Below, piece by piece: positions 7,402 through 42,369 of a DNA stretch of 64,000 nucleotides. The notes below the pieces were generated by a model. It was not told where the DNA came from and did no database searches. It worked only from the letters and a program-made list of their open reading frames with translations. Both the position numbers and the translations under genes were made by a program. Each line of letters opens with the position of its first letter. The stretch's first letter is position 1. Where the stretch lies: the IMG/VR virus record IMGVR_UViG_3300028045_000007, positions 1 to 64,000 of that record. One strand, given 5' to 3'. The DNA comes from a virus.

Positions 7402-8156
7402 TTCGGGATCGGTCCTTCGTTGTTGGCCCAAGCTTCGAGATCTTCAACCGTGTACCAGCCAAAGTTATTGTCTTGCTGTTCGCGGGGGTTGAGCCAGTAG
7501 ATCACGGGGTGAGCCGACTCGGTTTCCTCGCCTTTCCAGCGAGGACTGAGGGCGTAAAACGTCTTGCCCGCCGCCTTCAGTTTCTCGTGGATGCCAGCAG
7601 CCGTTGACGCTTCCGTCAGTGCTCGCCAGTCTTCGTGAGCGGCGATCCACTTGTCGGCCCACTCTTGGGGTAGGGCGGATTGGATGATGATTTTCAGGCC
7701 ACTGTTACTGAAGGCTTGACCTTCGCTCGCAAACAGCGACTCACACGTCACGACAGCATCATCGTATGTAAATGCCCGCACAATCGCGTCGTAGACGTTT
7801 TTGTCACGAATGGCTACCACGAAGCCGCTTTCGGACCACGCACCAAGTACTTCCGCGTCATCGTCGAACCATTTCGACAGGAAGCGTTCGCCAACCTCTC
7901 CCACACTTTCCCAATCGGAGAGGGCAATCAGGTGCCACTCGATCTCCTTGATGGTCATTGTGCCGTACAGTAGTTTGCTGGTTTTGGTTACGTGGTAACG
8001 TGCCGCACCGTCCGCTTTCTCGAAAATGCCGAGATCTCGCTTGATGCCCTTGACGCCCCACTCGTGTTCGGCAGTGAAATCCCAGCCGAGGTTCACGCCA
8101 ATCAGGTTTCCGTCTTCGTCCCTGATGACTCCGTTGTCCTTGAATGTGCTTTTCAT
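7389..8156 (-). CDS. Unknown protein, 255 residues
   Basis: I recognise no family. It is acidic and soluble-looking, has no signal or membrane segment, and has several Trp-rich blocks (SDWESVGEVGERF, LPQEWADKWIAAHEDW) and a C-terminal GWYTVEDLEAW motif. It heads the operon that continues into the macro-domain, metallophosphoesterase and receiver-domain genes, so it may belong to the same function. The ATG is 6 nt behind a TATAAT box (8163-8168), so the mRNA should be leaderless. Confidence 0.75.
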   Translation of the reverse strand: MKSTFKDNGVIRDEDGNLIGVNLGWDFTAEHEWGVKGIKRDLGIFEKADGAARYHVTKTSKLLYGTMTIKEIEWHLIALSDWESVGEVGERFLSKWFDDDAEVLGAWSESGFVVAIRDKNVYDAIVRAFTYDDAVVTCESLFASEGQAFSNSGLKIIIQSALPQEWADKWIAAHEDWRALTEASTAAGIHEKLKAAGKTFYALSPRWKGEETESAHPVIYWLNPREQQDNNFGWYTVEDLEAWANNEGPIPKCKP

Positions 8157-8162
8157 GTAGGC

Positions 8163-8190
8163 ATTATACCACGTAAGTCATCGTTGTCAA
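8163..8190 (-). promoter_or_regulatory. Leaderless-type promoter for the gene at 8156
   Basis: TTGACA (8190-8185), 16 nt, TATAAT (8168-8163), then 6 nt to the ATG at 8156. The -35 overlaps the stop region of the upstream gene. Confidence 0.8.
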
Positions 8191-8447
8191 GACCTTCCTT
8201 CAAACTTCTTTTGGAGACGTAGGTATTCCTGGTATTCCTGTGATTCAACTCTTTTGATCGCCCGAGCACACCCCATCGCCTCGAATAGAATGCTGCCGAA
8301 GTTGGGAGCACCCTTGTCGATCACCATGTACGAGTTTTCATTACCTTCTCTCGGCAGAAAGAAGGCTATTCGCGTACACTTATGTAGTGTGTCCGCCACG
8401 AGGTTTACTTGTCTGTCACGATTGCGAAGTTGCGGGTGTTCAGCCAT
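8187..8447 (-). CDS. Unknown small protein, 86 residues
   Basis: Starts at MAEHPQLRNRDRQV; it overlaps the zinc-ribbon gene upstream by 8 nt. Basic N-terminus, a middle block IAFFLPREGNENSYMVIDKG that looks like beta strands, and a Gln/Glu/Arg-rich helix at the end. No family recognised. Translationally coupled to the preceding small genes from the promoter at 8959-8986. Confidence 0.7.
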   Translation of the reverse strand: MAEHPQLRNRDRQVNLVADTLHKCTRIAFFLPREGNENSYMVIDKGAPNFGSILFEAMGCARAIKRVESQEYQEYLRLQKKFEGRS

Positions 8448-8640
8448 CTTTCTTGTCCTTGGGATAGTCGTTACAGTAAAAGCCATCGCCCTTAAAGATA
8501 ACGCCAACGTTCCTACTGATGATTCTTTTCAAGTGAAGTTTCCCACAATTGGGACATTTACGCTTAGCCCCCTCAGTGATGCTCTGGAAAAACTCACATT
8601 GGAGACCACAATCCCCACATTCGTACTCATACGTGGGCAT
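8440..8640 (-). CDS. FmdB-type zinc ribbon protein
   Basis: 66 residues beginning MPTYEYECGDCG, the hallmark of the FmdB/regulatory zinc-ribbon family, with the second Cys pair CPNCG at about 29-33. The pattern CxxC-x(~17)-CxxC is complete. FmdB-like proteins are thought to bind zinc and, in some cases, regulate transcription; a phage role is unknown. The start shares one base with the stop of the membrane peptide gene upstream (TAATG). Confidence 0.85.
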   Translation of the reverse strand: MPTYEYECGDCGLQCEFFQSITEGAKRKCPNCGKLHLKRIISRNVGVIFKGDGFYCNDYPKDKKDG

Positions 8641-8765
8641 TACTGGTTAGCCATAAGCCACTGGGCAGCAGCGATCATCATGTAGATCATGGCGGCGGCA
8701 CTGCCAATACACAGAATTGCAGTAACGAGGAGCCAGACATTGAAGGTGCGGACAGCAGTCTTCAT
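8640..8765 (-). CDS. Small membrane protein, 41 residues
   Basis: Reading the minus strand from 8765 gives MKTAVRTFNVWLL and then a single hydrophobic segment rich in Ala, Ile and Met, ending QWLMANQ. One transmembrane helix is likely. The start overlaps the stop of the gene upstream (ATGA) and its stop overlaps the FmdB start (TAATG), so it is coupled on both sides. Confidence 0.7.
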   Translation of the reverse strand: MKTAVRTFNVWLLVTAILCIGSAAAMIYMMIAAAQWLMANQ

Positions 8766-8953
8766 GGTTTGGTCGAAGTTTTGTTGCCGGGGTTCGAAGG
8801 GTTGGATTCGTCTACGCATTGGTTATTTTTTGAAGGGGCCGGATAAAGAATGGCGGCTGCAATGAGCCATCCTCCAGCGACCGGATGCTCATTCATAAGT
8901 AGGTAGGTGCCACAACCAAGAAACAGGAGTGGTGCGATGTTGTTGACTAACAT
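8762..8953 (-). CDS. Small membrane protein, 63 residues
   Basis: Two hydrophobic segments (NIAPLLFLGCGTYLL and GGWLIAAAILY) are followed by a polar Asn/Ser/Lys tail. No family recognised. The ATG lies 5 nt after a TATAAT box, so this first gene of a four-gene chain is probably translated from a leaderless mRNA. Small two-helix proteins of this kind are common in phage early regions and could be membrane effectors. Confidence 0.7.
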   Translation of the reverse strand: MLVNNIAPLLFLGCGTYLLMNEHPVAGGWLIAAAILYPAPSKNNQCVDESNPSNPGNKTSTKP

Positions 8954-8958
8954 GCCTT

Positions 8959-8986
8959 ATTATACCACCGTTAAACGCTATGTCAA
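8959..8986 (-). promoter_or_regulatory. Leaderless-type promoter for the gene at 8953
   Basis: TTGACA (8986-8981), 16 nt, TATAAT (8964-8959), then 5 nt to the ATG. The -35 overlaps the last codons of the upstream gene (TTG ACA TAG). Confidence 0.8.
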
Positions 8987-9307: not shown

Positions 9308-9559
9308 CTATATCGCTTCACCTTCCTCTAAAACGATTTTGAGTTTGCCACCGGCATTATCACGTGGTTCGACACGCACGATTTTGTATCCTGTCAGACA
9401 GGTGTAGTAGTTGTAATTGCCACCACCGAAGACATCAAGGCTACCCTCCCAAAAGCGAAATTCTGGCGTAAATCCTTCCGTGCAAGTGACCTGTCCCGTG
9501 AAGCGTGTCAGTTCACATTGACATGAGGAATCCCAGTAGACGACGTAAGTTTTATTCAT
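9308..9559 (-). CDS. Unknown small protein, 83 residues
   Basis: Starts MNKTYVVYWDSSC, overlapping the end of the small gene upstream by 8 nt. Cys at three places, aromatic-rich (FRFWEG, GGGNYNYYTC) and predicted beta-rich. No family recognised. It is the second gene of the unit driven by the promoter at 9692-9719. Confidence 0.7.
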   Translation of the reverse strand: MNKTYVVYWDSSCQCELTRFTGQVTCTEGFTPEFRFWEGSLDVFGGGNYNYYTCLTGYKIVRVEPRDNAGGKLKIVLEEGEAI

Positions 9560-9686
9560 TTTCGAGTTCCTTAGCAAGTGCAATTGCCATATCCCAGCCC
9601 TTCTGAGTGGGCTCGAAACGAGCAAAGGGCGAGAAGTAAAACGTATTCTTGGCGAAGTGCGGATCGATCATTTCTGAGATCTTCAT
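9552..9686 (-). CDS. Small protein, 44 residues, paralogue of the 10382-10720 C-terminus
   Basis: Reads MKISEMIDPHFAKNTFYFSPF and continues RFEPTQKGWDMAIALAKELENE. It matches the last 40 residues of the protein at 10382-10720 (IDPHFAKNTYYFSPFARFEP, then GWTMARILAEELEKE), so it is a partial duplicate that kept only this module. The ATG lies 5 nt after TATACT, a leaderless geometry. Confidence 0.75.
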   Translation of the reverse strand: MKISEMIDPHFAKNTFYFSPFARFEPTQKGWDMAIALAKELENE

Positions 9687-9691
9687 GACTC

Positions 9692-9719
9692 AGTATACCT
9701 CACGCAGCGGACGGGGCAA
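9692..9719 (-). promoter_or_regulatory. Leaderless-type promoter for the gene at 9686
   Basis: TTGCCC (9719-9714), 16 nt, TATACT (9697-9692), 5 nt to the ATG. Confidence 0.7.
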
Positions 9720-11364: not shown

Positions 11365-11538
11365 TTACGAGGGGTCGCTGCAACCTTTCCAGGCCCGCTC
11401 TCCATGGTCGTACCAGAACCACCCCGATTGCGTCTTACAGTACCAATCGTTGAAGCGGGCTTTCCAGCAAACATCTATGACTGCCTCATCTGGAACCCTT
11501 ACCCCGTTCTTGGTCAGGAGCTTGTTGTAATCCTTCAT
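11365..11538 (-). CDS. Unknown small protein, 57 residues
   Basis: Minus strand from 11538: MKDYNKLLTKNGVRVPDEAV followed by a Trp/Cys-rich part (CWKARFNDWYCKTQSGWFWY) and GERAWKGCSDPS. Seven aromatic and three Cys residues in 30 positions suggest a compact metal-binding or SH3-like fold, but I recognise no family. The ATG lies 6 nt after TATGAT, a leaderless geometry. Confidence 0.75.
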   Translation of the reverse strand: MKDYNKLLTKNGVRVPDEAVIDVCWKARFNDWYCKTQSGWFWYDHGERAWKGCSDPS

Positions 11539-11544
11539 GGCTCT

Positions 11545-11572
11545 ATCATATCATATGGTTAGTGTTTGTCAA
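11545..11572 (-). promoter_or_regulatory. Leaderless-type promoter for the gene at 11538
   Basis: TTGACA (11572-11567), 16 nt, TATGAT (11550-11545), 6 nt to the ATG. It is the last minus-strand promoter before the plus-strand tRNA unit. Confidence 0.8.
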
Positions 11573-11894: not shown

Positions 11895-11971
11895 CGCGGG
11901 GTAGAGCAGTCAGGCAGCTCGTCAGACCCATAATCTGGAGGTCGCTGGTTCGAATCCAGCTCCCGCTACCA
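11895..11971 (+). tRNA. Initiator-type tRNA-fMet (CAT)
   Basis: 77 nt with encoded CCA and complete cloverleaf: acceptor CGCGGGG/TCCCGCT, D arm GAGC...GCTC, anticodon stem TCAGA/TCTGG with loop CCCATAA (CAT), variable AGGTC, T arm GCTGG-TTCGAAT-CCAGC. The first pair is an unpaired C1 x T72, the feature that lets formyltransferase recognise bacterial initiator tRNA, and overall it resembles E. coli tRNA-fMet (CGCGGGGTGGAGCAGC start). The three G-C pairs usual in the initiator anticodon stem are not conserved (A29-G30-A31 instead). Confidence 0.9.
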
Positions 11972-12514: not shown

Positions 12515-12541
12515 GGAAAAGCCCGGTTTTCTTTACCGGGT
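12514..12541 (-). terminator. Terminator behind the 18-codon ORF
   Basis: Minus strand CCCGGT (12540-12535) pairs with ACCGGG (12527-12522), followed by CTTTT. It directly ends the micro-ORF transcript. Confidence 0.6.
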
Positions 12542-12589
12542 GTGTCCGTGGTACTCCAGTGGCCACGGCTCTCTTTTCCTTTCGTTCAT
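12533..12589 (-). CDS. Leaderless micro-ORF, 18 residues
   Basis: Minus strand reads MNERKREPWPLEYHGHTR and stops, with the ATG exactly 6 nt behind a TATAGT box that has a TTGACA 16 nt upstream. The unit is closed by its own terminator. The promoter-to-start geometry equals that of the larger leaderless genes, which argues the peptide is made; the peptide itself is unknown. It could also be a small RNA that happens to begin with ATG. Confidence 0.4.
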   Translation of the reverse strand: MNERKREPWPLEYHGHTR

Positions 12590-12595
12590 GCCATC

Positions 12596-12623
12596 ACTAT
12601 ACTATATGGGAGCCGATTGTCAA
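12596..12623 (-). promoter_or_regulatory. Leaderless-type promoter for the micro-ORF
   Basis: TTGACA (12623-12618), 16 nt, TATAGT (12601-12596), 6 nt to the ATG at 12589. Confidence 0.65.
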
Positions 12624-12648: not shown

Positions 12649-12676
12649 TTGACTTCCGGCACCCGTACTGTATACT
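12649..12676 (+). promoter_or_regulatory. Promoter of the gene at 12733
   Basis: TTGACT (12649-12654), 16 nt, TATACT (12671-12676). The leader of about 50 nt holds a small CCCCTGAGGGG hairpin and CGGAGA upstream of the ATG. Confidence 0.8.
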
Positions 12677-12732
12677 CTTGGCGAATCGAACGAAACGCCC
12701 CTGAGGGGCACAACACCGGAGACAATAGTAAT

Positions 12733-12945
12733 ATGAGCGAAGAAATCAAACGCACCGTGGGCCGTCCCGCTTCCTTCCCCGCCAACGTGGAAACCAAGGC
12801 TTTTCTGAAAAAGCTTCCGGTCGATGCCATTGCCATGGTGAGGGAACTGGCGGAACGTCGGGGGCAGAATCTCGACTTCACCCTGGATCAGATGATCCGG
12901 CGGTCCTTCAGAGAGGCGACCCGCAGCCGCTCGAAAAAGAGCTGA
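12733..12945 (+). CDS. Small basic protein, possible ribbon-helix-helix regulator
   Basis: 70 residues starting MSEEIKRTVGRPASFPANVE. The order basic N-terminal strand, then two amphipathic helices (DAIAMVRELAERRGQ and TLDQMIRRSFREAT), and the Arg/Lys/Ser tail would fit a ribbon-helix-helix DNA-binding protein, but I cannot confirm the fold. GGAGA lies about 10 nt before the ATG. The stop overlaps the next ATG (TGATG). Confidence 0.65.
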   Translation: MSEEIKRTVGRPASFPANVETKAFLKKLPVDAIAMVRELAERRGQNLDFTLDQMIRRSFREATRSRSKKS

Positions 12946-13083: not shown

Positions 13084-13111
13084 TTGACTTCTCGCGATCG
13101 TACGGTATACT
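13084..13111 (+). promoter_or_regulatory. Promoter of the DUF932-like gene
   Basis: TTGACT (13084-13089), 16 nt, TATACT (13106-13111), leader of about 45 nt with AAAGGA. Confidence 0.8.
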
Positions 13112-13158
13112 GACTGTGAATCGAACACAACGCAACTCAAGCAAAAGGACACAGAGCC

Positions 13159-14247
13159 ATGACCGATATCACTGGATTCTTCAACGCAAGGCAAGATGGC
13201 GACACGCACGCTAAAAGCCTCTTCACCGGGATCGGCGGCGACACCTCCGATACCATCATCTCCGACCTTCCGACCTTCCTGGAAGCCGCTGGCAGGGACT
13301 ACGGTATCCTCCGAAAGCCCGCCCTTGTGAATGATCCTTTCGGGGGAGTCGATGAGCACGGGAATATCGTTCCCGTCACCCGTGAGGTCGAAGGACAGTA
13401 TCACCTGACCCGTACCAATGATGGCCGGGTCGTCTCCCCTCACACTGTCACGGGGCAGTATGAGCCGCTGACCCTGCTCGATATCGCTGCTGAAATCCAG
13501 CCGTGGTGCGATGCCGGGTGGGTCACTCCCGATGCTGTCTACAGTGGCAAGAACGAATCCCTGGAGGTTCTCTGCCTCCGTATGGACGCCTCCGGAATGC
13601 TCCCGAACGGGGAACAATGGGATCACTATATCGTCTTCCGGAACCCGCACGGCTCCGGTGGCAAGGCCAAGGGAACCATTATCAGCTATAAGCCGGTATG
13701 TTCCAATACTTTCGGGGCTATCGGTCGCGGGATCGAATTCTCGGTGACTCACCGGATGTCCGCGAAAATGACCGAGGAAGAACGGCAGACCGTTATGGCC
13801 AAGCGGGTGGCGAAAGCGAAAGCCGCCTGGACTCAGGCCGACAAGTATATCGCCGGGCTCGCTCAGCGTATCAACGCCTGGAACGCCCAGCCCTTGACCG
13901 TGGTGCAAGCCGGTGCCCTGACCGATACCCTGCTCGGTATCAAGCCGGGAGCCGATCTCACGAACCGGGAGGAGGTTTCCAAGCAAGCCGCGAACAAGCG
14001 GGACGCGATCGTCCGAGGATTCTCAATGCCGCAATTCGGCACGAACGGTGCCACCCTGGGCGATTGGGTCAACGGTTTCACCTTCTGGAACTCCAGCCCG
14101 AATTCCGAAAGCGTGTCCAAGTCTCAAGTCGCCTCCGTGGATCGCATGATCCGGAACGTGGATCCGAACGGCTCCGGGTACAAGCTGGAAGCGAAAGCCC
14201 TCGAAATCGCTCGGCGTGTCCTGGACGGCACGATCACGCTGGCCTAA
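13159..14247 (+). CDS. DUF932-like phage/plasmid protein
   Basis: 362 residues. The pattern fits the phage/plasmid-related DUF932 group: a ligand-like N-terminal part with YGILRKPAL, a beta-rich middle (RVVSPHTVTGQYEPL, DHYIVFRNPHGSGG) and the conserved VCSNTFGA block in which Cys-Asn-Thr is typical. The function of the family is unknown; members occur on plasmids and phages near replication genes. AAAGGA lies 12 nt before the ATG. The largest product of this small-gene region. Confidence 0.7.
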   Translation: MTDITGFFNARQDGDTHAKSLFTGIGGDTSDTIISDLPTFLEAAGRDYGILRKPALVNDPFGGVDEHGNIVPVTREVEGQYHLTRTNDGRVVSPHTVTGQYEPLTLLDIAAEIQPWCDAGWVTPDAVYSGKNESLEVLCLRMDASGMLPNGEQWDHYIVFRNPHGSGGKAKGTIISYKPVCSNTFGAIGRGIEFSVTHRMSAKMTEEERQTVMAKRVAKAKAAWTQADKYIAGLAQRINAWNAQPLTVVQAGALTDTLLGIKPGADLTNREEVSKQAANKRDAIVRGFSMPQFGTNGATLGDWVNGFTFWNSSPNSESVSKSQVASVDRMIRNVDPNGSGYKLEAKALEIARRVLDGTITLA

Positions 14248-14259
14248 TCTTTACGCGGG

Positions 14260-14293
14260 CGGGGCTTGACAGCCCCGCCCCGTAAGGTATACT
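14260..14293 (+). promoter_or_regulatory. Leaderless-type promoter inside a hairpin
   Basis: CGGGGCT (14260-14266) pairs with AGCCCCG (14271-14277) around TGAC; the -35 TTGACA (14266-14271) is the loop and its edges. A 16-nt spacer leads to TATACT (14288-14293), 5 nt before the ATG at 14299. Confidence 0.75.
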
Positions 14294-14298
14294 CTGGT

Positions 14299-14520
14299 AT
14301 GTCAAGACACACAATCGGAACCAAGCGAGGTTCCGTCCGGGGGGCTCCCCCCGATGTCTATGTAGGTTTCGGAGAATTCGACGAAACCGAGGAAGCCTGG
14401 GAGCCGACCATCCGGTTGGCAAAGAACATGGGAGCGTGGGTGCTCTGTATGATTCTCTCGGCTTTCCTGTTTGTGCTCATGGTAGCCTTTGGCTGGCTAC
14501 CTGACGATTTCCTAGATTGA
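14299..14520 (+). CDS. Single-pass membrane protein, 73 residues
   Basis: MSRHTIGTKRGSVRGAPPDV, an acidic middle (GEFDETEEAWEP), then one strong transmembrane helix (AWVLCMILSAFLFVLMVAFGW) close to the C-terminus. Orientation is likely N-in with a short outer tail. No family recognised. Leaderless geometry (5 nt from the -10). Confidence 0.75.
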   Translation: MSRHTIGTKRGSVRGAPPDVYVGFGEFDETEEAWEPTIRLAKNMGAWVLCMILSAFLFVLMVAFGWLPDDFLD

Positions 14521-14630: not shown

Positions 14631-14825
14631 GGGGGGATAGCTCAATTGGTTAGAGCGGGTCGCCGCAAGGCGATGTCCTCAAGTCTTAGCCAGACTGTCG
14701 CACGGTTAGCTCCCGTGACGCATAGGAAAGCACCGGGGGGTTGCTCCCCTGAGAGACGAACAGGAATACAATATAACTCGAGGTTATTGTATCGGTTGCA
14801 GGTTCGAACCCTGCTCACCCCACCA
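14631..14825 (+). tRNA. Interrupted tRNA or tRNA-like RNA (195 nt)
   Basis: The 5' part is a normal tRNA half: acceptor GGGGGGA, TA, D arm GCTC-AATTGGTTA-GAGC (14631-14656). The 3' part is equally normal: variable CGGTT, T arm GCAGG-TTCGAAC-CCTGC, acceptor TCACCCC, A, encoded CCA (14793-14825). One acceptor pair (G5 x A68) is mismatched. About 108 nt of GC-rich, stem-forming sequence separate the D arm from an ATACA/TGTAT stem (14766-14770 with 14788-14792) that would be the anticodon stem with an oversized 17-nt loop. No anticodon can be assigned. An intron, or a dedicated tRNA mimic, are the options. Confidence 0.6.
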
Positions 14826-15202: not shown

Positions 15203-15230
15203 TTGCCTTTCTCTCTCCATGCGGTATACT
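15203..15230 (+). promoter_or_regulatory. Leaderless-type promoter for the ORF at 15237
   Basis: TTGCCT (15203-15208), 16 nt, TATACT (15225-15230), 6 nt to the ATG. A-rich sequence upstream may act as an UP element. Confidence 0.75.
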
Positions 15231-15236
15231 GCTGGC

Positions 15237-15367
15237 ATGAATAAAGCATATTTCGTTGGGGCCGTGGGGCTCTCTCATACGCTACTGAGGCAGAAGCCGA
15301 GATAGCAAAAGACGGCGACCCCGATGGCTACTCTCTGATGGTCGAAGAAATAACGGAAACCGTTTGA
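15237..15367 (+). CDS. Small leaderless gene with apparent -1 frameshift
   Basis: The ATG at 15237 opens MNKAYFVGAVG and the frame stops at 15305. Switching to the -1 frame at GTGGGGCTC continues as ALSYATEAEIAKDGDPDGYS and LMVEEITETV to a TGA at 15365-15367 that overlaps the next -35, exactly as in other genes here. A base missing from the G4 run (true G5) or a programmed -1 shift would give one 43-residue protein. No family recognised. Confidence 0.5.
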
Positions 15368-15391
15368 CTTCTCACGATTGTGGGGTATACT
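15364..15391 (+). promoter_or_regulatory. Leaderless-type promoter of the GP88-like gene
   Basis: TTGACT (15364-15369), 16 nt, TATACT (15386-15391), 6 nt to the ATG at 15398. Confidence 0.85.
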
Positions 15392-15397
15392 GAAACC

Positions 15398-16030
15398 ATG
15401 AAGGTAACGATCAAGCAACTCGAAACGGCAACGGGTACCCTCTCCAATCCCTCTAAAATGCCGGGTTTCGGCTACGGTATTCCGGCCCGCCATTGTATCA
15501 CGGGCGGTAGGCTTCGCAAGGTCGATTGCAGCGTATGCTCGCATTGCTACGGATGCAAGGGGCGATACGTATTCAAGAGCGTGGTAGCGGCTCAGGATCG
15601 CCGTTTCGCCTCCCTGGCAGACTTGGAAGTCTGGACTGCCAATATGACAGCCCTGATTTCGAGAAAACTCGAAAAGAAAGAGAAAGTCTTTCGCTGGCAT
15701 GATTCGGGCGATATCCAATCGGCGGAACATCTTTCCGCTATCGTGCAGATCGCTCGCAACCTTCCCGCGATTCAATTCTGGCTCCCGACGAAAGAATACG
15801 GTATTGTCCGTCGATGGCTCAGGAGCCACCGTATGCCTTCCAATCTCGTCATCCGGGTTTCGGCCCCGATGGTCGGCGAATCTCTCCAGGCCATTCCTGG
15901 CACCGTTTCGAGCACCGTGCAGACTGGAAAAGGTTTCGTATGTCCCGCCCCCGATCAGAATAACGAGTGTCAGGACTGCCGGGCTTGCTGGAATAAAAAC
16001 GTGAAATCAGTTGACTATCACAAGCAATAG
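15398..16030 (+). CDS. GP88-family phage protein
   Basis: 210 residues. The N-terminal block LSNPSKMPGFGYGIPARHC, the Cys pair CSVCSHCYGCKGRY, RWHDSGDIQSAEHL and FWLPTKEY match the Gp88 family of phage and plasmid proteins. The Cys-rich ends (Cys at both termini, C..C..C near NECQDCRACW) suggest a metal or iron-sulfur site. The molecular function is unknown. Leaderless ATG; the last codons hold the -35 of the next promoter. Confidence 0.8.
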   Translation: MKVTIKQLETATGTLSNPSKMPGFGYGIPARHCITGGRLRKVDCSVCSHCYGCKGRYVFKSVVAAQDRRFASLADLEVWTANMTALISRKLEKKEKVFRWHDSGDIQSAEHLSAIVQIARNLPAIQFWLPTKEYGIVRRWLRSHRMPSNLVIRVSAPMVGESLQAIPGTVSSTVQTGKGFVCPAPDQNNECQDCRACWNKNVKSVDYHKQ

Positions 16031-16301: not shown

Positions 16302-16499
16302 GTGGTCGAAGTCAATGATGTCGGCTATTGTGGCACCATCATGCCGGGGCAACTCACTCACCACATTTTCGAGGGGATCACCAGCATGGTCCTGGCTCAC
16401 GCTATTGCGGGAGTGGACATCGAGGACCCGAGGTATCTGGAGGGGATCGAAACCGCTGTAGAAAACGTTGAAGGATTACTTGACGAATCACGATCCTGA
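16302..16499 (+). CDS. Unknown small protein, about 65 residues
   Basis: The frame reads VEVNDVGYCGTIMPGQLTHH, then a helical middle (SMVLAHAIAGVDIED) and an acidic end. TTGACA at 16269-16274 is followed by an imperfect -10 just before a GTG at 16302, taken as the start; ATG 16341 is the alternative. The stop overlaps the next promoter. No family recognised. Confidence 0.6.
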   Translation: MVEVNDVGYCGTIMPGQLTHHIFEGITSMVLAHAIAGVDIEDPRYLEGIETAVENVEGLLDESRS

Positions 16500-16507
16500 G
16501 GTATACT
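16480..16507 (+). promoter_or_regulatory. Leaderless-type promoter for the gene at 16514
   Basis: TTGACG (16480-16485), 16 nt, TATACT (16502-16507), 6 nt to the ATG. Confidence 0.8.
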
Positions 16508-16513
16508 GAGGAC

Positions 16514-16738
16514 ATGGAAACAACAACACTCGCACCCGGGATCTACACGCTTTTCGTGCTGTATGAAAACGGCATCTGGGAACAGCCCCTCTATCGTATC
16601 GAGGGAGAGGGATGGACCGAGCACGCTATCGAGGCAATCGCTATCAATGCGAACCGCAAGATATTCTACGCTTGCGGAGTTCAGGAAGACCGCGACGCTG
16701 ACGAAGACCTTGCTGAGAACCTTGGAGAGTGCCCCTGA
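16514..16738 (+). CDS. Unknown small acidic protein, 74 residues
   Basis: METTTLAPGIYTLFVLYENG, beta-rich start (IYTLFVLYENGIWEQPLYRI), then a helix and an Asp/Glu-rich end. Leaderless ATG. The stop TGA overlaps the methyltransferase ATG (TGATG), so the two are coupled. No family recognised. Confidence 0.75.
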   Translation: METTTLAPGIYTLFVLYENGIWEQPLYRIEGEGWTEHAIEAIAINANRKIFYACGVQEDRDADEDLAENLGECP

Positions 16739-17250
16739 TGCAATGCACGCAACGCAAGAACACGATAGGCACCTACCGGAAGCTCAAGCGGCTCATCCTC
16801 CCGGGGGCCATGGTCCTAGACTATGGCTCTGGCTATGGCCTAGGGGCAACGTTGCTCCATGCGGACGCTTTCGAGCCCAATGCACGTGAGGGAGTATGGC
16901 CCACCTACACTCAGCCCCATCACATTCCCGCGAGTCTGTACGACGTGGTGGTATGTAACTGCGTGCTAAACGTGGTGGACAAGTGGGAGGATCGGGTGGA
17001 GATCATGAACCATATCGTGCGTGCCCTCAAGCCGGGTGGGTGTGCATACATCATGGCACGCTCGCATAGGGACGTGGGCGATATCAAGCACAAAACAGCA
17101 GAGGGAGACGGCTGGAGACTGAAGAACGGTGCTTTCCAGCGTGGATACGGTCGTGACGAGCTAAGGGGCTTCCTGGTGCCCTTCGGTGAGGTGACGCGGA
17201 TTTTCCGCATCAATAGTATCGGATTCTGCTTGACAACTCCTACTCCGTAG
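16738..17250 (+). CDS. SAM-dependent class I methyltransferase
   Basis: 170 residues from MQCTQRKNTIGTYRKLK. Motif I is VLDYGSGYGLGA (glycine loop binding S-adenosylmethionine), motif II region AFEPNA, motif IV YDVVVCNCVLNVV, and LKPGGCAYIMAR is the typical post-IV strand. The substrate is not evident; this compact type methylates small molecules, RNA or protein. Coupled to the upstream gene through TGATG. Its last codons contain the -35 of the next gene. Confidence 0.85.
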   Translation: MQCTQRKNTIGTYRKLKRLILPGAMVLDYGSGYGLGATLLHADAFEPNAREGVWPTYTQPHHIPASLYDVVVCNCVLNVVDKWEDRVEIMNHIVRALKPGGCAYIMARSHRDVGDIKHKTAEGDGWRLKNGAFQRGYGRDELRGFLVPFGEVTRIFRINSIGFCLTTPTP

Positions 17251-17258
17251 GATACAAT
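17230..17258 (+). promoter_or_regulatory. Leaderless-type promoter for the gene at 17265
   Basis: TTGACA (17230-17235), 17 nt, TACAAT (17253-17258), 6 nt to the ATG. Confidence 0.8.
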
Positions 17259-17264
17259 GAGAGC

Positions 17265-17477
17265 ATGAAGCTCGTTCCGAAAACCCGCAAAGGGAAGAAC
17301 AGGCTCCACGAAGCGGGGACGGACGAGTGGCGTATCGTGAGACGGAGTGATTCCGTGATATGCTTCAACGGCAAGCCGGGCATCCTAATCGAGCCCGTGC
17401 TAGAGGATAGAACCAAAGCGGACAATAAGAGTCGCTGGGTCCTCGCTGACAATGATCCGGATTTTACGTGGGCCTAA
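17265..17477 (+). CDS. Unknown small basic protein, 70 residues
   Basis: MKLVPKTRKGKNRLHEAGTD, then WRIVRRSDSVICFNGKPGIL and a C-terminal Trp-containing tail. The alternation of strands and basic loops would fit an SH3/OB-like fold, but no family is recognised. Leaderless ATG; first of a four-gene chain. Confidence 0.75.
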   Translation: MKLVPKTRKGKNRLHEAGTDEWRIVRRSDSVICFNGKPGILIEPVLEDRTKADNKSRWVLADNDPDFTWA

Positions 17478-17999: not shown

Positions 18000-18028
18000 T
18001 TGACTATGCTCCGCTTTTGTTGTACTAT
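18000..18028 (+). promoter_or_regulatory. Leaderless-type promoter for the gene at 18035
   Basis: TTGACT (18000-18005), 17 nt, TACTAT (18023-18028), 6 nt to the ATG. Confidence 0.75.
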
Positions 18029-18034
18029 GTACAT

Positions 18035-18187
18035 ATGAAGCGGAGCAAAGCCAAACGAAAGCCCAAGTCGGCAGAGAAAGCCCAGCGTGGTGCTGGTGCT
18101 GCTGCAAACGCTACCAAGGGCAGGGCTCGCACCTTCCGCAACCGCAAACGTGAGGCTGCACGTAAAGCGTGCAGGGGCAACCGATGA
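18035..18187 (+). CDS. Highly basic small protein, 50 residues
   Basis: MKRSKAKRKPKSAEKAQRG and on: about 40 percent Lys/Arg, with Ala/Gly linkers and no hydrophobic core, so probably a nucleic-acid-binding or disordered protein. Leaderless ATG; its stop overlaps the next ATG (ATGA). Confidence 0.7.
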   Translation: MKRSKAKRKPKSAEKAQRGAGAAANATKGRARTFRNRKREAARKACRGNR

Positions 18188-18342: not shown

Positions 18343-18680
18343 AGTATCCCGCAGTACGCCGCTACATGGGTCTTCGTGCTCGATACGCCGAAGAGGATTG
18401 CCCCCGGTGTGACGATCCTGGCTCTGGTATGTGGCTCGATACTCACCACAAGGCATGGATATGCACACGGTGCAAGCGTGCTAGTAGATACCACCTACAC
18501 AAAGCGAGCAGGAACTATCAGGGCAACCCCTATCAGGGGTCGTCCAATGATAACCAGCGGGCCGAGTGTGCCACCCTGGAGGAAGCCCGTGCCCTACAGT
18601 TGAAGCTGAGTAGGCGGAACGGTGTGGGCTGGCGGATCTACGATGCTGATACCCTTGAAGAAGTCGCGGGTCCTATTTGA
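18339..18680 (+). CDS. Zinc-ribbon protein, 113 residues
   Basis: CPRCDDPGSG at 21-30 and ICTRCKRAS at about 41-49 form a CxxC...CxxC ribbon. The basic middle is followed by ATLEEARALQLKLSRRNGVGW with a final RIYDADTLEEVAGPI. Possibly a nucleic-acid-binding accessory protein. The TGA stop lies in the -35 of the next promoter. Confidence 0.75.
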   Translation: MKYPAVRRYMGLRARYAEEDCPRCDDPGSGMWLDTHHKAWICTRCKRASRYHLHKASRNYQGNPYQGSSNDNQRAECATLEEARALQLKLSRRNGVGWRIYDADTLEEVAGPI

Positions 18681-18704
18681 CTTCTCCCGATCCTGAGGTA
18701 CAAT
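18677..18704 (+). promoter_or_regulatory. Leaderless-type promoter for the gene at 18711
   Basis: TTGACT (18677-18682, overlapping the upstream TGA stop), 16 nt, TACAAT (18699-18704), 6 nt to the ATG. Confidence 0.8.
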
Positions 18705-18710
18705 AGAACC

Positions 18711-18977
18711 ATGAAGATCACTGGACAACTAATGACGCAACCGCAAGCCACAGAGACCGCCGATGGTAGAGTGTTGGTAGCGGTCTTTGGAGTCATCGCG
18801 GTACCCAAAGGGAGCGAACTGGACATCACCCATAGGCAATTCATTGTCGCTGGTGGTGCTGATTGGTCCGGTATGCACACCGATTTGAAGATCCACCACG
18901 TGGAGACGCAAGATCACCCCGAGTGTAGGGGCATGGGTGTTACCGGCATCCTCACTAGCCCCATTTGGCGGGTATGA
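18711..18977 (+). CDS. Unknown small protein, 88 residues
   Basis: MKITGQLMTQPQATETADGR, then strong beta strands (VLVAVFGVIAVPKGSELDI) and a His-rich middle. No family recognised. Leaderless ATG. Its stop overlaps the following ATG (ATGATG). Confidence 0.75.
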   Translation: MKITGQLMTQPQATETADGRVLVAVFGVIAVPKGSELDITHRQFIVAGGADWSGMHTDLKIHHVETQDHPECRGMGVTGILTSPIWRV

Positions 18978-19207
18978 TGATCGAGCAAGTACGCGGCACC
19001 AGAGCCCCGTGGGACGAACGTATCCAAGCCCTATGGGATGAGCGTGTGGCTCCTCTCTTCGCCGATGGTGAAACGTGCAGCCATGCCAACTACTTCTCCC
19101 CTCGGCCATACGTGGACGAATACAACCGGGCTACTCGTTTCGAGGGATTCTGCTACACCGTGCAGCCGGGGTATCGTGTTTGCATAAAAGAATGGTTCCC
19201 CTCTTGA
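18974..19207 (+). CDS. Unknown small protein, 77 residues
   Basis: MMIEQVRGTRAPWDERIQAL, a Trp/Asp-rich start, Cys at three positions and many Tyr residues towards the end (FCYTVQPGYRVCIKEWF). Coupled to the upstream gene by ATGA. Its TGA stop lies within the TTGACT of the next promoter. No family recognised. Confidence 0.75.
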   Translation: MMIEQVRGTRAPWDERIQALWDERVAPLFADGETCSHANYFSPRPYVDEYNRATRFEGFCYTVQPGYRVCIKEWFPS

Positions 19208-19231
19208 CTAGTACCGATTAGGTGCTATACT
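19204..19231 (+). promoter_or_regulatory. Leaderless-type promoter opening a GTG micro-ORF
   Basis: TTGACT (19204-19209), 16 nt, TATACT (19226-19231), 6 nt to the GTG at 19238. Confidence 0.75.
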
Positions 19232-19237
19232 GTCATC

Positions 19238-19276
19238 GTGAACGAGAAAACGACATTCATCCACGAACGAGAATAG
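19238..19276 (+). CDS. Leaderless upstream ORF, 12 residues
   Basis: GTG at the standard 6-nt distance from TATACT starts MNEKTTFIHERE and stops with TAG, 2 nt before the ATG of the next gene. It is likely a leader peptide that loads ribosomes for re-initiation at 19279. Confidence 0.45.
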   Translation: MNEKTTFIHERE

Positions 19277-19731: not shown

Positions 19732-19742
19732 CGAAAATCCTA

Positions 19743-19778
19743 GGGGCCGCTTGACAAAGCGGCCCCTAGTGCTATACT
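19743..19778 (+). promoter_or_regulatory. Terminator-like hairpin with the -35 in its loop; leaderless promoter
   Basis: GGGGCCGC (19743-19750) pairs perfectly with GCGGCCCC (19759-19766); the loop TTGACAAA contains the -35. A 16-nt spacer leads to TATACT (19773-19778), 6 nt before the ATG at 19785. Confidence 0.8.
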
Positions 19779-19784
19779 GTAGTC

Positions 19785-20357
19785 ATGAATCACGCCGAAG
19801 AATCAATAGCCTACTACCTTGAGCATTATAGCTCGTGCCGCCTTGCGGCCCTCAACGCCCTGCTATTCTGTCTCAGTGGTGGTGCGGAATGGAATACCAA
19901 CGGCCAGCTAGACAACTGCTCAAGCGAGGTGCCGCCCGAGAAATGGTATCCGCCGGGTGATAGCCCGGAAGAGGCTAAAGAGTTCCACGATGGAAACGAT
20001 GCTTTCGAGCGAGCGTACTATGCCGAGAACACTTGGCACAATTGGTTTGATGCGTTCGACGTGATGCATTTCCATATCGGTGCAGTACCCGATAACGTTA
20101 GCGACGACTGGCTAGCTGTGTGTATCGAAGCGTGCGAAGCGTACCTAGCCGTGCCCAAGTGGATGCCCAAGATTGCAATAGGGTTCGACTACAGCGGCGT
20201 AACGTACACCGATGATGGTGAGCAGGTGGGAGAGATGCAACGGATTATGGAGCCGTGGCGATCCGATCCCGAGCTGAAGCTAGATAAGCCAGCCGTTACC
20301 AAAATCCTGGAAAAACTACTTGCAATTCGTGCTGAGCGTGATACAGTAGAGGCATGA
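19785..20357 (+). CDS. Unknown protein, 190 residues
   Basis: MNHAEESIAYYLEHYSSCRL, then Trp/Tyr/Asp-rich blocks (NTWHNWFDAFDVMHFHIG) and a helical C-terminus. Soluble and acidic. No family recognised. The next promoter starts within its final codons (TTGCAA 20320-20325). Leaderless ATG. Confidence 0.75.
   Translation: MNHAEESIAYYLEHYSSCRLAALNALLFCLSGGAEWNTNGQLDNCSSEVPPEKWYPPGDSPEEAKEFHDGNDAFERAYYAENTWHNWFDAFDVMHFHIGAVPDNVSDDWLAVCIEACEAYLAVPKWMPKIAIGFDYSGVTYTDDGEQVGEMQRIMEPWRSDPELKLDKPAVTKILEKLLAIRAERDTVEA
20320..20347 (+). promoter_or_regulatory. Leaderless-type promoter for the gene at 20354
   Basis: TTGCAA (20320-20325), 16 nt, TACAGT (20342-20347), 6 nt to the ATG. Confidence 0.7.
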
Positions 20358-20632
20358 GAGTCAAAGTCGAATATGCTGAGAATCCCGAGTGGGATGGAAT
20401 CATCGAGGGCGAGACATGGAACGATATCATGCACTCTGGAGTAGGTTGCACGGCTACTCGCATGACGGTGCTACCCGAGATCGAGACCTATGCCGATCTC
20501 CTCGCTCTCCAGGCAGAACGGTTCCCCGAGGGAGACGTATGTGAGGACAACGGGGGTCAACTCATCATATACACTGGTCTCCAAGAGACCAAGGGCGGGG
20601 AGTTGGAGCCAGCGGGAGAGCCGGAAGACTAG
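20354..20632 (+). CDS. Unknown small acidic protein, paralogue of 21737
   Basis: 92 residues, MRVKVEYAENPEWDGIIEGE. The C-terminal block NGGQLIIYTGLQ matches GGQIVIYTGLK in the protein at 21737-22063, and both start with a basic strand followed by an acidic loop, so they are paralogues. No family recognised. Overlaps the preceding stop (ATGA). Confidence 0.75.
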   Translation: MRVKVEYAENPEWDGIIEGETWNDIMHSGVGCTATRMTVLPEIETYADLLALQAERFPEGDVCEDNGGQLIIYTGLQETKGGELEPAGEPED

Positions 20633-21239: not shown

Positions 21240-21269
21240 TCTAGCCCATAGGGCTAAACAAAAATCCAA

Positions 21270-21305
21270 GGCCCCGCTTGACAATGCGGGGCCTTGTGCT
21301 ATACT
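21270..21305 (+). promoter_or_regulatory. Terminator-like hairpin with the -35 in its loop; leaderless promoter
   Basis: GGCCCCGC (21270-21277) pairs with GCGGGGCC (21286-21293); the loop TTGACAAT holds the -35. TATACT is at 21300-21305, 6 nt before the ATG at 21312. Confidence 0.8.
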
Positions 21306-21311
21306 GAAGGC

Positions 21312-21521
21312 ATGAAGAAATGCAGCACACACGGCGGAACGGAATGGAAAGGCGGCTACTGCGACAAGTGGTCCACCGATGCGGGGAAAGGCCCGTGCGT
21401 TGAGACTCACGAGCCCGAGCCCGGCACCTACGCCCACACGGCTCGTATGCTGGTCGATTGCGGGATGGACCCGGATGAGGCCGATCGCTGGAAAGACGAA
21501 ATGAAGGAGCGGGATCTGTAG
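21312..21521 (+). CDS. Unknown small Cys-containing protein, 69 residues
   Basis: MKKCSTHGGTEWKGGYCDKW, with CSTHG...YCDKW resembling a small zinc knuckle, then helical DEADRWKDEMKE. Leaderless ATG. No family recognised. Confidence 0.75.
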   Translation: MKKCSTHGGTEWKGGYCDKWSTDAGKGPCVETHEPEPGTYAHTARMLVDCGMDPDEADRWKDEMKERDL

Positions 21522-21703: not shown

Positions 21704-21731
21704 TTGCCTTTTCCCAATCGTGTGGTATAAT
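21704..21731 (+). promoter_or_regulatory. Leaderless-type promoter for the gene at 21737
   Basis: TTGCCT (21704-21709), 16 nt, TATAAT (21726-21731), 5 nt to the ATG. Confidence 0.8.
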
Positions 21732-21736
21732 AGAGC

Positions 21737-22063
21737 ATGAAATACAAAATCACCTGGACAGAGAATGTTGGTTACGAAGCAATCGTCGAAGGAGCAGACA
21801 GCCCCGAGCAGGCCCTAGAGTGGTTCCAAGATGATGCGGGCGAGTGGAATCCTCAGTCTACCGACTACTGTGAAATCGAACAGGACTCAATCGAGGTAGA
21901 GCCCTACTTTGATTCCAAAGAACAGCTTTCGGAACTCTGTTTCAAGCTGAGGACCGTACTCCCTCACCTGGAAGCTACCAGAGACGAAGGGGGTCAGATC
22001 GTGATCTACACTGGTCTCAAACTCACCGACCAAGGCAATCTGATCGAGCACGAACCCGAGTAG
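21737..22063 (+). CDS. Unknown acidic protein, 108 residues, paralogue of 20354
   Basis: MKYKITWTENVGYEAIVEGA, then a helix (SPEQALEWFQDDAGEW) and the shared DEGGQIVIYTGLK block. The helix insert is absent from the shorter paralogue at 20354. No family recognised. Leaderless ATG. Confidence 0.75.
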   Translation: MKYKITWTENVGYEAIVEGADSPEQALEWFQDDAGEWNPQSTDYCEIEQDSIEVEPYFDSKEQLSELCFKLRTVLPHLEATRDEGGQIVIYTGLKLTDQGNLIEHEPE

Positions 22064-27510: not shown

Positions 27511-27515
27511 GTGGC

Positions 27516-28019: not shown

Positions 28020-28025
28020 GTTCAC

Positions 28026-28094
28026 ATGGATACAGCAAGCGAAACGAACCAGTGGGCCACGTTCAACTTGAGATTTTTCACGTACGAGCGGTAG
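28026..28094 (+). CDS. Leaderless ORF running into the HD gene in another frame, 22 residues
   Basis: The ATG at the standard distance opens MDTASETNQWATFNLRFFTY and ends ER-stop at 28094. A -1 shift at the T5 run (AGATTTTTC) would join it smoothly to the HD-domain frame at HVRAVDSHRGQ. Either the HD gene starts here with a frameshift or a missing base, or this is a leader peptide. Confidence 0.45.
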   Translation: MDTASETNQWATFNLRFFTYER

Positions 28095-28899: not shown

Positions 28900-28927
28900 T
28901 TGCTTCTCGCCCATAGCAGGGTATACT
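28900..28927 (+). promoter_or_regulatory. Leaderless-type promoter for the gene at 28934
   Basis: TTGCTT (28900-28905), 16 nt, TATACT (28922-28927), 6 nt to the ATG. Confidence 0.8.
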
Positions 28928-28933
28928 GTCCCC

Positions 28934-29128
28934 ATGAGTGAAGCACAAGACAACGGAATGGAAATCGCCGAGCGGGATGCCGCTCAAGAACAGAACGCCG
29001 AGAAGACTACACTGTCCGGCATTGGTAAGATGCTTAGGGGCATAGTCAAGAGTAACCCACACGGTGCGGAGTACTGGCGAGATGCCGCTCGCCGGATTCA
29101 GGAACGGATGTTCCAGGACATCGTGTAG
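28934..29128 (+). CDS. Unknown small protein, 64 residues
   Basis: MSEAQDNGMEIAERDAAQEQ, acidic helix, then LSGIGKMLRGIVKSNPHGAE and a basic helix ending RMFQDIV. No family recognised. Leaderless ATG. Confidence 0.7.
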   Translation: MSEAQDNGMEIAERDAAQEQNAEKTTLSGIGKMLRGIVKSNPHGAEYWRDAARRIQERMFQDIV

Positions 29129-41038: not shown

Positions 41039-41039
41039 A

Positions 41040-41576
41040 TTAACCCTCCCCTATTTTACCTACCTGGATATTGGCACGGAGCAAAAGCTCGATGCCGCTG
41101 AGAACCCTATATTCCTCATCATATATTACTCTAACAATACCCGACTGGATGATCAGTTTGGCACAATCGAGACACGGTGAAGAAGTAACGTACAAGGTGC
41201 CGCCACGTACGCTTACGGTAGAGCCAGCCGCCTTGGCTATTGCGTTTGATTCAGCGTGGAGTACCTCTGGCTTGGTTACGAGTTCGACAGAGTGCAACGG
41301 GGGGCCGCTTGTTATGCCGCATGGCAACTCTGCATTGCAGTAATTGCAATACAACAATCGCGTAACTCTGTCCTCGACCCACTCATGTACACAGCTAATT
41401 CTCTCGTTTTCGCAGCAGTTATCAAAACCAGAAGGCGTACCATTAAAACCAGGGAGCATCAGTCCGTCTGGCAGTACAATTACGGCACCGACCTTCGTGC
41501 GTTGAGCCCGCGACAGCTTACTCAACGCACGAGCACAGTCCATATATGCCTTATCTAGTGATTTCTGATTTGCCAT
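41040..41576 (-). CDS. Deoxycytidylate (dCMP) deaminase-like
   Basis: 178 residues. HAESNA (about 107) and TSSPCLDCAK (about 131) are the zinc-binding HAE and PCxxC motifs of the cytidine/deoxycytidylate deaminase superfamily. Four further Cys in FDNCCENE and LYCNYCNAE resemble the structural zinc seen in T4-type dCMP deaminase. It would supply dUMP for thymidylate synthesis. Confidence 0.85.
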   Translation of the reverse strand: MANQKSLDKAYMDCARALSKLSRAQRTKVGAVIVLPDGLMLPGFNGTPSGFDNCCENERISCVHEWVEDRVTRLLYCNYCNAELPCGITSGPPLHSVELVTKPEVLHAESNAIAKAAGSTVSVRGGTLYVTSSPCLDCAKLIIQSGIVRVIYDEEYRVLSGIELLLRANIQVGKIGEG

Positions 41577-41802
41577 CGAATGGATTTAGTAGTTGGGCGG
41601 TTTTTTCCGCTTCGAATAATCGACTCAGTTCGGAACGTAGACCACGGAGCCAGTTGGCAGCTATAGCTTGAAAAGCAACTTCCTCGTCGCCTTCTTGCGA
41701 TACGGCTAAGTCTCTCAACTCCCCCATATGCACCTGTGCAGCACGCCTACCTCGCATTCGAGCCAAGAAAAGCGTGTGTGCGAAGGTATCTTTCTTAGGC
41801 AT
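41551..41802 (-). CDS. Unknown small protein, 83 residues
   Basis: MPKKDTFAHTLFLARMRGRR, helical with an amphipathic middle and LFEAEKTAQLLNPFDGKSE. Overlaps the deaminase by 26 nt. No family recognised. Confidence 0.7.
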   Translation of the reverse strand: MPKKDTFAHTLFLARMRGRRAAQVHMGELRDLAVSQEGDEEVAFQAIAANWLRGLRSELSRLFEAEKTAQLLNPFDGKSEITR

Positions 41803-42335
41803 TATTTGTTTTCGTCGTCAGGGTCGAAGGATTGAAACGGCAATTGTAAGAATGCTTTAGCGTATTTCGACATCAGCTTGTCGTAAATGTCTTCTGGCGA
41901 ATATGACTTATCTTTTGAAATGACATGCATATCTGTTGACAGCATCGATGCTTTCACTGATATCTCATGAAACCCAATGACAATATTCTTGATGAGCTTC
42001 TCTATGCGAGCCTTACGAAGTCTGACTTCTGCATCTTGAAGCGTCTCTTTTAGTAAGTTCAAGCTTGCCCTTAGTGCGTCGCGACGCTTCTCCCAATTCA
42101 GACGTTGCAACGCGGTGACAGGGGGTTCGTCACATGACAGAATCGCGGAACTAATTTTTGAACTCTTAAACATTGCGTGAGCGTCCCGAGGATCGGCAGC
42201 GTCCACACATACTCCGCTGAAATCCATATTTACAGGATCAAACTCTTCTTCTGCAAATGCGTCAATATCCTGCACGAAGACGTTACTCTGGATCTTACCG
42301 CCCTCCCTTATGTGATAAACGTAGTATCTAGTCAT
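41802..42335 (-). CDS. Unknown protein, 177 residues
   Basis: MTRYYVYHIREGGKIQSNVF, beta start, then a long helix with heptad-like Leu (RLNWEKRRDALRASLNLLKE) and a helical C-terminus. Leaderless geometry at the promoter 42341-42369. No family recognised. Confidence 0.75.
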   Translation of the reverse strand: MTRYYVYHIREGGKIQSNVFVQDIDAFAEEEFDPVNMDFSGVCVDAADPRDAHAMFKSSKISSAILSCDEPPVTALQRLNWEKRRDALRASLNLLKETLQDAEVRLRKARIEKLIKNIVIGFHEISVKASMLSTDMHVISKDKSYSPEDIYDKLMSKYAKAFLQLPFQSFDPDDENK

Positions 42336-42340
42336 GATGA

Positions 42341-42369
42341 AGTCTACTATCTAGATGACACGAAGTCAA
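42341..42369 (-). promoter_or_regulatory. Leaderless-type promoter for the gene at 42335
   Basis: TTGACT (42369-42364), 17 nt, TAGACT (42346-42341), 5 nt to the ATG. Confidence 0.7.

Follow-up and report, generated by a model that had tools for sequence, protein, structure and literature searches.

Sigma70-type promoters placed directly before start codons suggest leaderless early genes in a clade of uncultured phages

The window analysed here, 64,000 nucleotides in length, comprises bases 1-64,000 of a 154,408-bp uncultured phage record (IMG/VR IMGVR_UViG_3300028045_000007, hereafter G000), and the elements in question are 28 open reading frames (ORFs) with a promoter immediately before the start codon. 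We consider it very probable that the early genes of the phage clade represented by this record are transcribed by the host RNA polymerase in units, each with its own sigma70-type promoter that is fused to the ORF such that the start of transcription coincides with the start codon or lies within about 3 nt of it. What we observe directly is the geometry of promoters and starts, which is conserved and more frequent than chance would give, along with the initiator bases, the existence of two gene classes and a repeated cassette. In the mechanism that we propose, the host RNA polymerase would start transcription at the ATG of each unit, many of which also carry a terminator-like hairpin, and the 5'-terminal AUG would be translated by 70S ribosomes, similarly to other leaderless mRNAs. 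A second, conserved set of early genes would employ the same promoters plus a leader. Lacking a Shine-Dalgarno sequence, a leaderless ORF should depend solely on its own promoter for expression, with read-through making no contribution; read-through transcripts would remain untranslated at these ORFs, making the units independent, and each ORF could then behave as a plug-in unit that is gained, lost or shuffled via recombination between the repeated cassettes.

The original prediction held that, at 28 starts on both strands, a -10 hexamer lies 5 or 6 nt before the start codon and is accompanied by a -35 element. Re-reading of the sequence bears this out at every one of them: the start codon is preceded by a -10-like hexamer at a distance of exactly 5 or 6 nt, and a -35 element (TTGAC or TTGC) lies 16-17 nt from the -10 box. 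The distance from the -10 box to the start codon (the gap) is 5 nt at 8953, 9686, 42335, 14299, 21737 and 27516, and 6 nt at the remaining 22 starts; the start codon is ATG at 27 starts and GTG at 19238. When promoters are scored by the number of consensus matches over the -35 and -10 hexamers (maximum 12), most of the 28 reach at least 9/12, the lowest scores being those of 20354, 24427, 28026 and 28934 (8/12 each) and 26814 (7/12). Absent from the list was the minus-strand start at 42937, which has an 11/12 promoter at gap 9. A GTG at 25350 (gap 6) is a possible alternative leaderless start for the gene at 25380 that had been classed as leadered, and additional leaderless-type starts are found beyond the window, at 150652 and 154348, both on the minus strand. 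The original prediction also did not include the repeated cassette, the hairpins within promoters and the initiator-like tRNA described below.

The excess over chance is large. Between positions 8001 and 43000, 31 ATG or GTG codons have a promoter (at least 8/12) at gap 5-6, whereas 100 shuffles gave 0.93 on average and never more than 3, and the first 20 kb contain 42 promoter-like sites against 15 expected. A scan of strong sigma70-type promoters in 11 phages, in which genes were ignored, finds an ATG at gap 5-6 in 129 of 423 cases (39 at gap 5 and 90 at gap 6, compared with about 6 per offset elsewhere), with a minor ATG peak at gap 8. Across the full comparison set of 17 phages, namely, G000 and 16 relatives (ten whole viral records and six further phage contigs; several of the records are fragments, and G014 is represented without its last 2 kb), an ATG follows strong -10 boxes 51 times at gap 5 and 105 times at gap 6 (156 in total). 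The same pairing is recovered from the opposite direction: gene starts called by a simple script that uses only coding potential and start-codon type, ignoring promoter and ribosome-binding signals, show a -10 peak at gaps 5-6 (43 and 56, compared with about 8 per position), along with a distinct, ordinary Shine-Dalgarno peak. The pairing of promoters with starts is neither a chance effect nor an artefact of gene calling.

The usual initiator of sigma70 promoters consists of a pyrimidine at -1 and a purine at +1. Among the 17 phages, the base preceding the ATG is C or T in 93% of the gap-6 cases and 82% of the gap-5 cases, compared with 47% for Shine-Dalgarno genes. In the gap-9 group, the pyrimidine/purine step shifts to -4/-3 while its spacing from the -10 box is unchanged; with the step located 3 bases upstream, the leader in this group would be about 3 nt. 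These patterns are indirect evidence that fits a start of transcription on the A of the ATG in the main class, so that the earlier claim of mRNAs beginning at the start codon gains support from the conserved gap together with the -1 pyrimidine and +1 purine on the ATG, the transcription starts themselves being predicted from these bases.

An ATG at this position could, in principle, merely complete an extended promoter or initiator motif (CATGA), the true translation start lying further downstream on an mRNA that has a leader. A sequence bias around +1 does exist, with C at -1 and A following the ATG, and four of the ORFs span 22 codons or fewer. Nevertheless, the gap-6 ATGs open ORFs with a median of 95 codons, 91% of which reach 40 aa (17 phages), compared with ORFs of only about 20 codons for ATGs located 15-40 nt downstream of a promoter. 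Furthermore, homology to other phages often begins within the first codons, many matches having a query start of 1-3, and the gene starts called from coding potential alone coincide with many of the promoter-adjacent ATGs. We therefore regard this alternative as highly improbable, and the promoter-adjacent ATGs, judged by their reading frames and homology, as the likely true translation starts, with the exception of the four micro-ORFs.

No near DNA relative of G000 was detected among 50,697 phage records. The terminase (49231-51255) shares at most about 28% identity with Bacillus phage terminases and is 53-81% identical to most of the homologs from about 20 uncultured IMG/VR contigs and from contigs in two cellular bins; a few others are more distant, at 38-44% identity. 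The phage encodes UvsX- and DnaB-like proteins, and its terminase and capsid only remotely resemble those of known phages. Two routes to a host were tried and abandoned: the terminase and capsid matches lead only to remote Bacillus, Staphylococcus and Microcystis phages and are uninformative, and the Hydrogenophaga and Nitrospirales metagenomic bins, each of which holds a contig of the clade, are not trusted as hosts. The Hydrogenophaga bin has a GC content of 68% in the sampled stretch, compared with 53% in its phage contig.

Conservation of the layout was assessed as the presence of a promoter at gap 5-9 of the homologous start, with an offset of 15-19 nt as the control. Such promoters precede 20 of the 37 homologs of leaderless genes, compared with 3 of 42 homologs of leadered genes and 5 of 1011 homologs of core genes; at the control offset, the count for the leaderless-gene homologs is 0 of 37. 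Thus, the short distance between the -10 box and the start, the conservation of which the original prediction had offered as a check, is kept in the relatives. A different promoter threshold would alter these counts, and the contrast between the classes should stay. The clearest conserved leaderless starts are 14299 (layout kept in 4 of 5 homologous starts, with a further homolog at gap 6 in G008), 15398, which encodes a GP88 protein (5 of 9), 18035 (3 of 4) and 26814, the SprT-like gene (3 of 4); the layouts of 22284 and 27516 are kept in G002. The ATG peak is strong in G000-G002, G004, G005 and G010, and present in G003 and G007.

The coexistence of two gene classes is likewise supported, the class being kept gene by gene across the relatives, which indicates that the two classes are real and mostly stable. 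The leadered genes 12733 (leadered in 8 of 8 relatives), 13159 (leaderless in 0 of 4), 20892 and 23150 are never leaderless among the relatives tested, and gene 4409 switches class, being leaderless in 3 of 10 relatives. Leaderless starts account for 17.6% of the genes without homologs in the clade, compared with 3.7-6.4% of the widely shared genes. The ten genes described earlier as having leaders with AAAGGAG-like sites do have leaders of about 20-50 nt behind the same type of promoter; a clear AAAGGAG is not present in all of them (for example, 13159 and 20892). On the plus strand, gene 12733 occupies 12649-12945 including the promoter, with the -10 box ending at 12676, and the DUF932-like gene 13159 (Pfam match slightly under the cut-off) occupies 13084-14247, with the -10 box ending at 13111. 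The leader region of 12733 (12649-12733) and, in some relatives, that of 13159 (13084-13159) contain a short G+C-rich hairpin with an A-rich stretch after it, an arrangement that recurs in relatives whose sequence differs here.

Several observations weigh against the leaderless organization of the early genes as proposed here. At the threshold used, 17 of the 37 homologous starts lack the leaderless layout; the ATG peak is weak or absent in the distant relatives G008, G009, G017 and G018; four of the 28 ORFs have at most 22 codons (12589, 18 aa; 15237, 22 aa; 19238, 12 aa; 28026, 22 aa) and an unproven coding status; and, should leaderless genes be common in the group to which the host belongs, the layout may merely reflect that of the host. 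This last possibility, that the phage infects a member of the Actinobacteria, Deinococcus-Thermus or another such group and uses the ordinary host layout, would alter the meaning of the layout and not its existence. In these groups, leaderless genes average from about 19% (Actinobacteria) to 39% (Deinococcus-Thermus) of the genes (PMC3160421), and the spacing of about 6-7 bp between the -10 box and the ORF in bacterial leaderless genes (PMC12340547) is the same as in the phage. However, no comparable peak at gap 5-6 was seen in stretches of the Hydrogenophaga and Nitrospirales bins, which may not be the hosts. Moreover, leaders are found in the late genes and the conserved early gene set of the same phage, which is therefore not leaderless throughout, and its -35 boxes are strong, compared with the mostly -10-only promoters of Deinococcus. 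We consider host mimicry possible and lean against it.

Searches of the open-access literature revealed no phages with many leaderless early genes, and the leaderless layout is absent from T4, SPO1, phiW-14, P23-45, lambda, P1, T5 and phage G (10 strict promoters in 1.3 Mb). The 60 genomes of the family of one cellular bin (a putative host family) yield 3 layout matches in all. Most known leaderless messages of phages are isolated examples, lambda cI among them, or belong to a small number of promoters predicted in mycobacteriophages. The start-associated sequences (SAS) of cluster K mycobacteriophages are ribosome-binding-type elements, unlike the element described here, which is a promoter and does not involve a Shine-Dalgarno sequence. 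The resemblance to SAS and ESAS lies in the presence of a repeated element at many gene starts (PMC12699233). In cluster O mycobacteriophages such as Corndog, which have a host group rich in leaderless genes, three leaderless promoters have been predicted (PMC4351075), compared with up to about 28 per genome, conserved family-wide, in the clade analysed here. The leaderless (TA-led) genes of bacteria share with the phage units a -10 box ending about 6 nt before the start, the lack of a Shine-Dalgarno sequence and the coexistence with leadered genes (PMC3160421, PMC12340547). TA-led genes are recognized by a -10-like signal some 10-12 bp ahead of the start codon, and this signal is found at all 28 starts and clade-wide. 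The phage units differ from the bacterial genes in belonging to the early accessory region of a phage clade and in having -35 boxes with 16-17-nt spacers, unlike the Deinococcus leaderless sites, most of which have no classical -35 box. The assertion that an early region built in this manner is unusual holds, as far as the open-access literature goes, for the scale and the clade-wide use in the early region of a phage, whereas leaderless genes of this kind were already known.

That most of the independently promoted early genes are leaderless and stand beside a conserved leadered class with the same promoters provides a natural comparison for why a virus drops the ribosome-binding site. The layout also suggests why gene-calling programs that rely on ribosome-binding-site scores may place the starts of these small genes wrongly.

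The label of an early region is supported indirectly by the distribution of promoters. All 26 strict sigma70 promoters of G000 lie in 1-43 kb and 150-154 kb, with none in the 107 kb between 43 and 150 kb, the stretch that holds the terminase, portal, capsid and replication genes. Within this 107-kb stretch, the motif TTAGTGTAT(T/C/A) occurs in 7 copies, all on the coding strand (window positions 51252, 58623 and 61986; genome positions 67636, 76291, 81088 and 131882), compared with 0 in a shuffled genome. Most relatives contain 6-12 copies, and the motif is strand-specific to the late region in nearly all phages of the clade. By its distribution, it looks like a candidate phage-specific late promoter.

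A tRNA gene on the plus strand (11895-11971), with a promoter-like TGGACA-17-TATAAT 111 nt upstream, encodes an initiator-like tRNA-Met(CAU) that resembles Escherichia coli tRNA-fMet. It shares with the bacterial initiator the 1:72 mismatch (C.T), G2:C71, C3:G70, A11:U24, A73 and the CAU anticodon; the pairs G2:C71, C3:G70 and A11:U24 assist formylation. Initiator-like tRNA genes were identified in 12 phages, in 10 of these at a comparable site, 0.7-3.3 kb upstream of the homolog of 12733 or 13159; the exceptions are G008, where the distance is 9.5 kb, and G017, where no such neighbor was found. Position 1:72 is non-pairing in all 12 copies, and all the listed determinants (2:71, 3:70 and 11:24) are present in 10, the exceptions being G008 (G.U at 2:71) and G010 (U:A at 11:24). 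The 1:72 mismatch alone is no proof because 30 of 299 other phage tRNAs share it. Unlike in bacterial tRNA-fMet, the three consecutive G-C pairs of the anticodon stem (29:41, 30:40 and 31:39) are incomplete in 11 of the 12 copies (0-2 of 3; 1 of 3 in G000), the full set being found only in G017, so we denote these tRNAs initiator-like rather than initiator. The three G-C pairs are highly conserved in initiator tRNAs of all domains of life and are important when the 30S complex is converted into the 70S complex (PMC7949028), and an increased amount of initiator tRNA strongly enhances leaderless translation (PMC9031893).

We speculate that this tRNA may be part of the leaderless system, tuning initiation toward this gene class. 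In the strongest version of this idea, a dedicated leaderless early programme comprising dozens of promoter-fused ORFs, the formylated tRNA without the three G-C pairs would raise the level of fMet-tRNA and, being poorly selected in canonical 30S initiation, would favor 70S initiation on 5'-terminal AUGs, such that early phage messages are preferred over host messages; we deem this version rather unlikely. If the initiator-like tRNA does act on leaderless messages, it would represent a viral means to switch the initiation pathway. Alternatively, the tRNA could be unrelated to leaderless translation and replace host tRNA-fMet cut by anticodon nucleases such as VapC, with the altered stem evading cleavage. 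The tRNA-fMet is the target of Shigella VapC, and phage tRNAs with altered anticodon loops have been proposed to evade host tRNases (PMC10264068). A T4-type RNA ligase (genome 147649-148854, minus strand) and a CCA-adding/poly(A)-polymerase-like enzyme (genome 149402-150652, minus strand) are likewise encoded by the phage and, with its peptide deformylase (genome 138485-139147, minus strand), possibly form a tRNA-maintenance set. Against this replacement role stand the position of the tRNA at the head of the leaderless array in most phages of the clade and the fact that the altered pairs are exactly those that mark initiators, both of which are suggestive only. We put the replacement role at somewhat below an even chance, and protection from VapC-type nucleases is equally well or better founded than a leaderless role for this tRNA.

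Separately, the window contains a tRNA-like RNA (14631-14825) with its own promoter, in which Rfam recognizes the acceptor, D and T arms and about 135 nt replace the anticodon arm. Similar RNAs are located at 84952-85144 of G002 and 4140-4390 of the contig L173; the G002 counterpart shares the TCTTAGC and TAGCTCCCG motifs and the leader TGAAAACTCA. The number of predicted tRNA genes is 25-51 in G001, G003, G009, G013, G014 and G017, compared with 4 in G000.

Most intergenic regions in the stretch from 21.6 to 29.3 kb are copies of one element of about 140-200 nt, which contains three hairpins (one terminator-like, one of the GTGGCTTAGCCAC type and a second G+C-rich one), together with an A-rich stretch and a promoter. 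The first strong copy by profile match is at 22503-22644 (plus strand), and further copies start at 22806, 23517, 24278, 24665, 25190, 26059, 26666, 27370, 27876 and 29168, with a weak copy at 21593. Profile matching identifies 12 copies in G000, 15 in G002, 6 in G013, 2 in G001 and 1 in the contig from the Hydrogenophaga bin. Most copies in G000 and G002 end at a leaderless start, some feed leadered genes (24834 and 25380), and the gene content around the cassettes varies among the relatives. An A-rich UP element as a general trait of leaderless promoters was rejected, the A content upstream of the -35 box being 0.29 compared with 0.31; it is a feature of the cassettes only. The PeSL cassettes of T4-type phages (Arbiol 2010, Comeau 2014, cited in PMC4503421) are reported to mediate gene shuffling and are similar in comprising a repeated terminator and early promoter between small early ORFs. 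The cassette of this clade differs in that it usually ends so as to leave the ORF leaderless, and the likeness considered here is one of layout.

Some of the promoters have perfect inverted repeats built into them on the plus strand: a 10-bp repeat at 14257-14280, whose loop holds part of the -35 TTGACA of the promoter of 14299, a 13-bp repeat at 19740-19769 around the -35 box of 19785, and an 11-bp repeat at 21267-21296 around that of 21312. Inverted repeats with arms of at least 9 bp centered near the -35 box occur at 13 of 378 promoters, compared with 0.2 expected, and those with arms of at least 6 bp in the spacer between the -35 and -10 boxes number 18, compared with 2.4 expected. They are found also in G001-G005, G010 and G012, and the arm sequence varies by site while the pairing stays. 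Possible roles include an operator, a block to read-through or protection of mRNA 3' ends. A role of the embedded hairpins as coding-strand intrinsic terminators of the upstream gene is not supported where read, with no T-run following them; at 19740-19769, the T-run is on the opposite strand.

The individual leaderless units, including their promoters (-35 box, spacer length and -10 box), are as follows. On the minus strand, these are 7389-8190 (TTGACA-16-TATAAT, ATG 8156, 255 aa), 8762-8986 (TTGACA-16-TATAAT, ATG 8953, 63 aa), 9552-9719 (TTGCCC-16-TATACT, ATG 9686, 44 aa), 11365-11572 (TTGACA-16-TATGAT, ATG 11538, 57 aa), the micro-ORF unit 12533-12623 (TTGACA-16-TATAGT, ATG 12589), the end of which is overlapped by a terminator-like hairpin, 41802-42369 (TTGACT-17-TAGACT, ATG 42335, 177 aa) and the near-leaderless unit 42677-42975 (TTGACG-17-TATAAT, ATG 42937, 86 aa). 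On the plus strand, 14266-14520 (TTGACA-16-TATACT, ATG 14299, 73 aa) is followed by the micro-ORF unit 15203-15305 (TTGCCT-16-TATACT, ATG 15237), the GP88 gene at 15364-16030 (TTGACT-16-TATACT, ATG 15398, 210 aa), 16480-16738 (ATG 16514, 74 aa), 17230-17477 (TTGACA-17-TACAAT, ATG 17265, 70 aa), 18000-18187 (TTGACT-17-TACTAT, ATG 18035, 50 aa) and 18677-18977 (TTGACT-16-TACAAT, ATG 18711, 88 aa). The 12-codon ORF unit at 19204-19276 (TTGACT-16-TATACT, GTG 19238) possibly encodes a leader peptide for the next gene. Further units are 19751-20357 (TTGACA-16-TATACT, ATG 19785, 190 aa), 20320-20632 (TTGCAA-16-TACAGT, ATG 20354, 92 aa), 21278-21521 (ATG 21312, 69 aa), 21704-22063 (TTGCCT-16-TATAAT, ATG 21737, 108 aa), 22250-22478 (ATG 22284, 64 aa), 22617-22782 (ATG 22651, 43 aa), 22920-23091 (ATG 22954, 45 aa), 23631-23997 (TTGCAA-16-TATAAT, ATG 23665, 110 aa) and 24393-24627 (TTGCAT-16-TATTAT, ATG 24427, 66 aa). 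The array continues with 26173-26344 (ATG 26207, 45 aa), the SprT-like gene at 26780-27329 (ATG 26814, 171 aa), 27483-27662 (ATG 27516, 48 aa), the micro-ORF unit 27992-28094 (ATG 28026) and 28900-29128 (ATG 28934, 64 aa).

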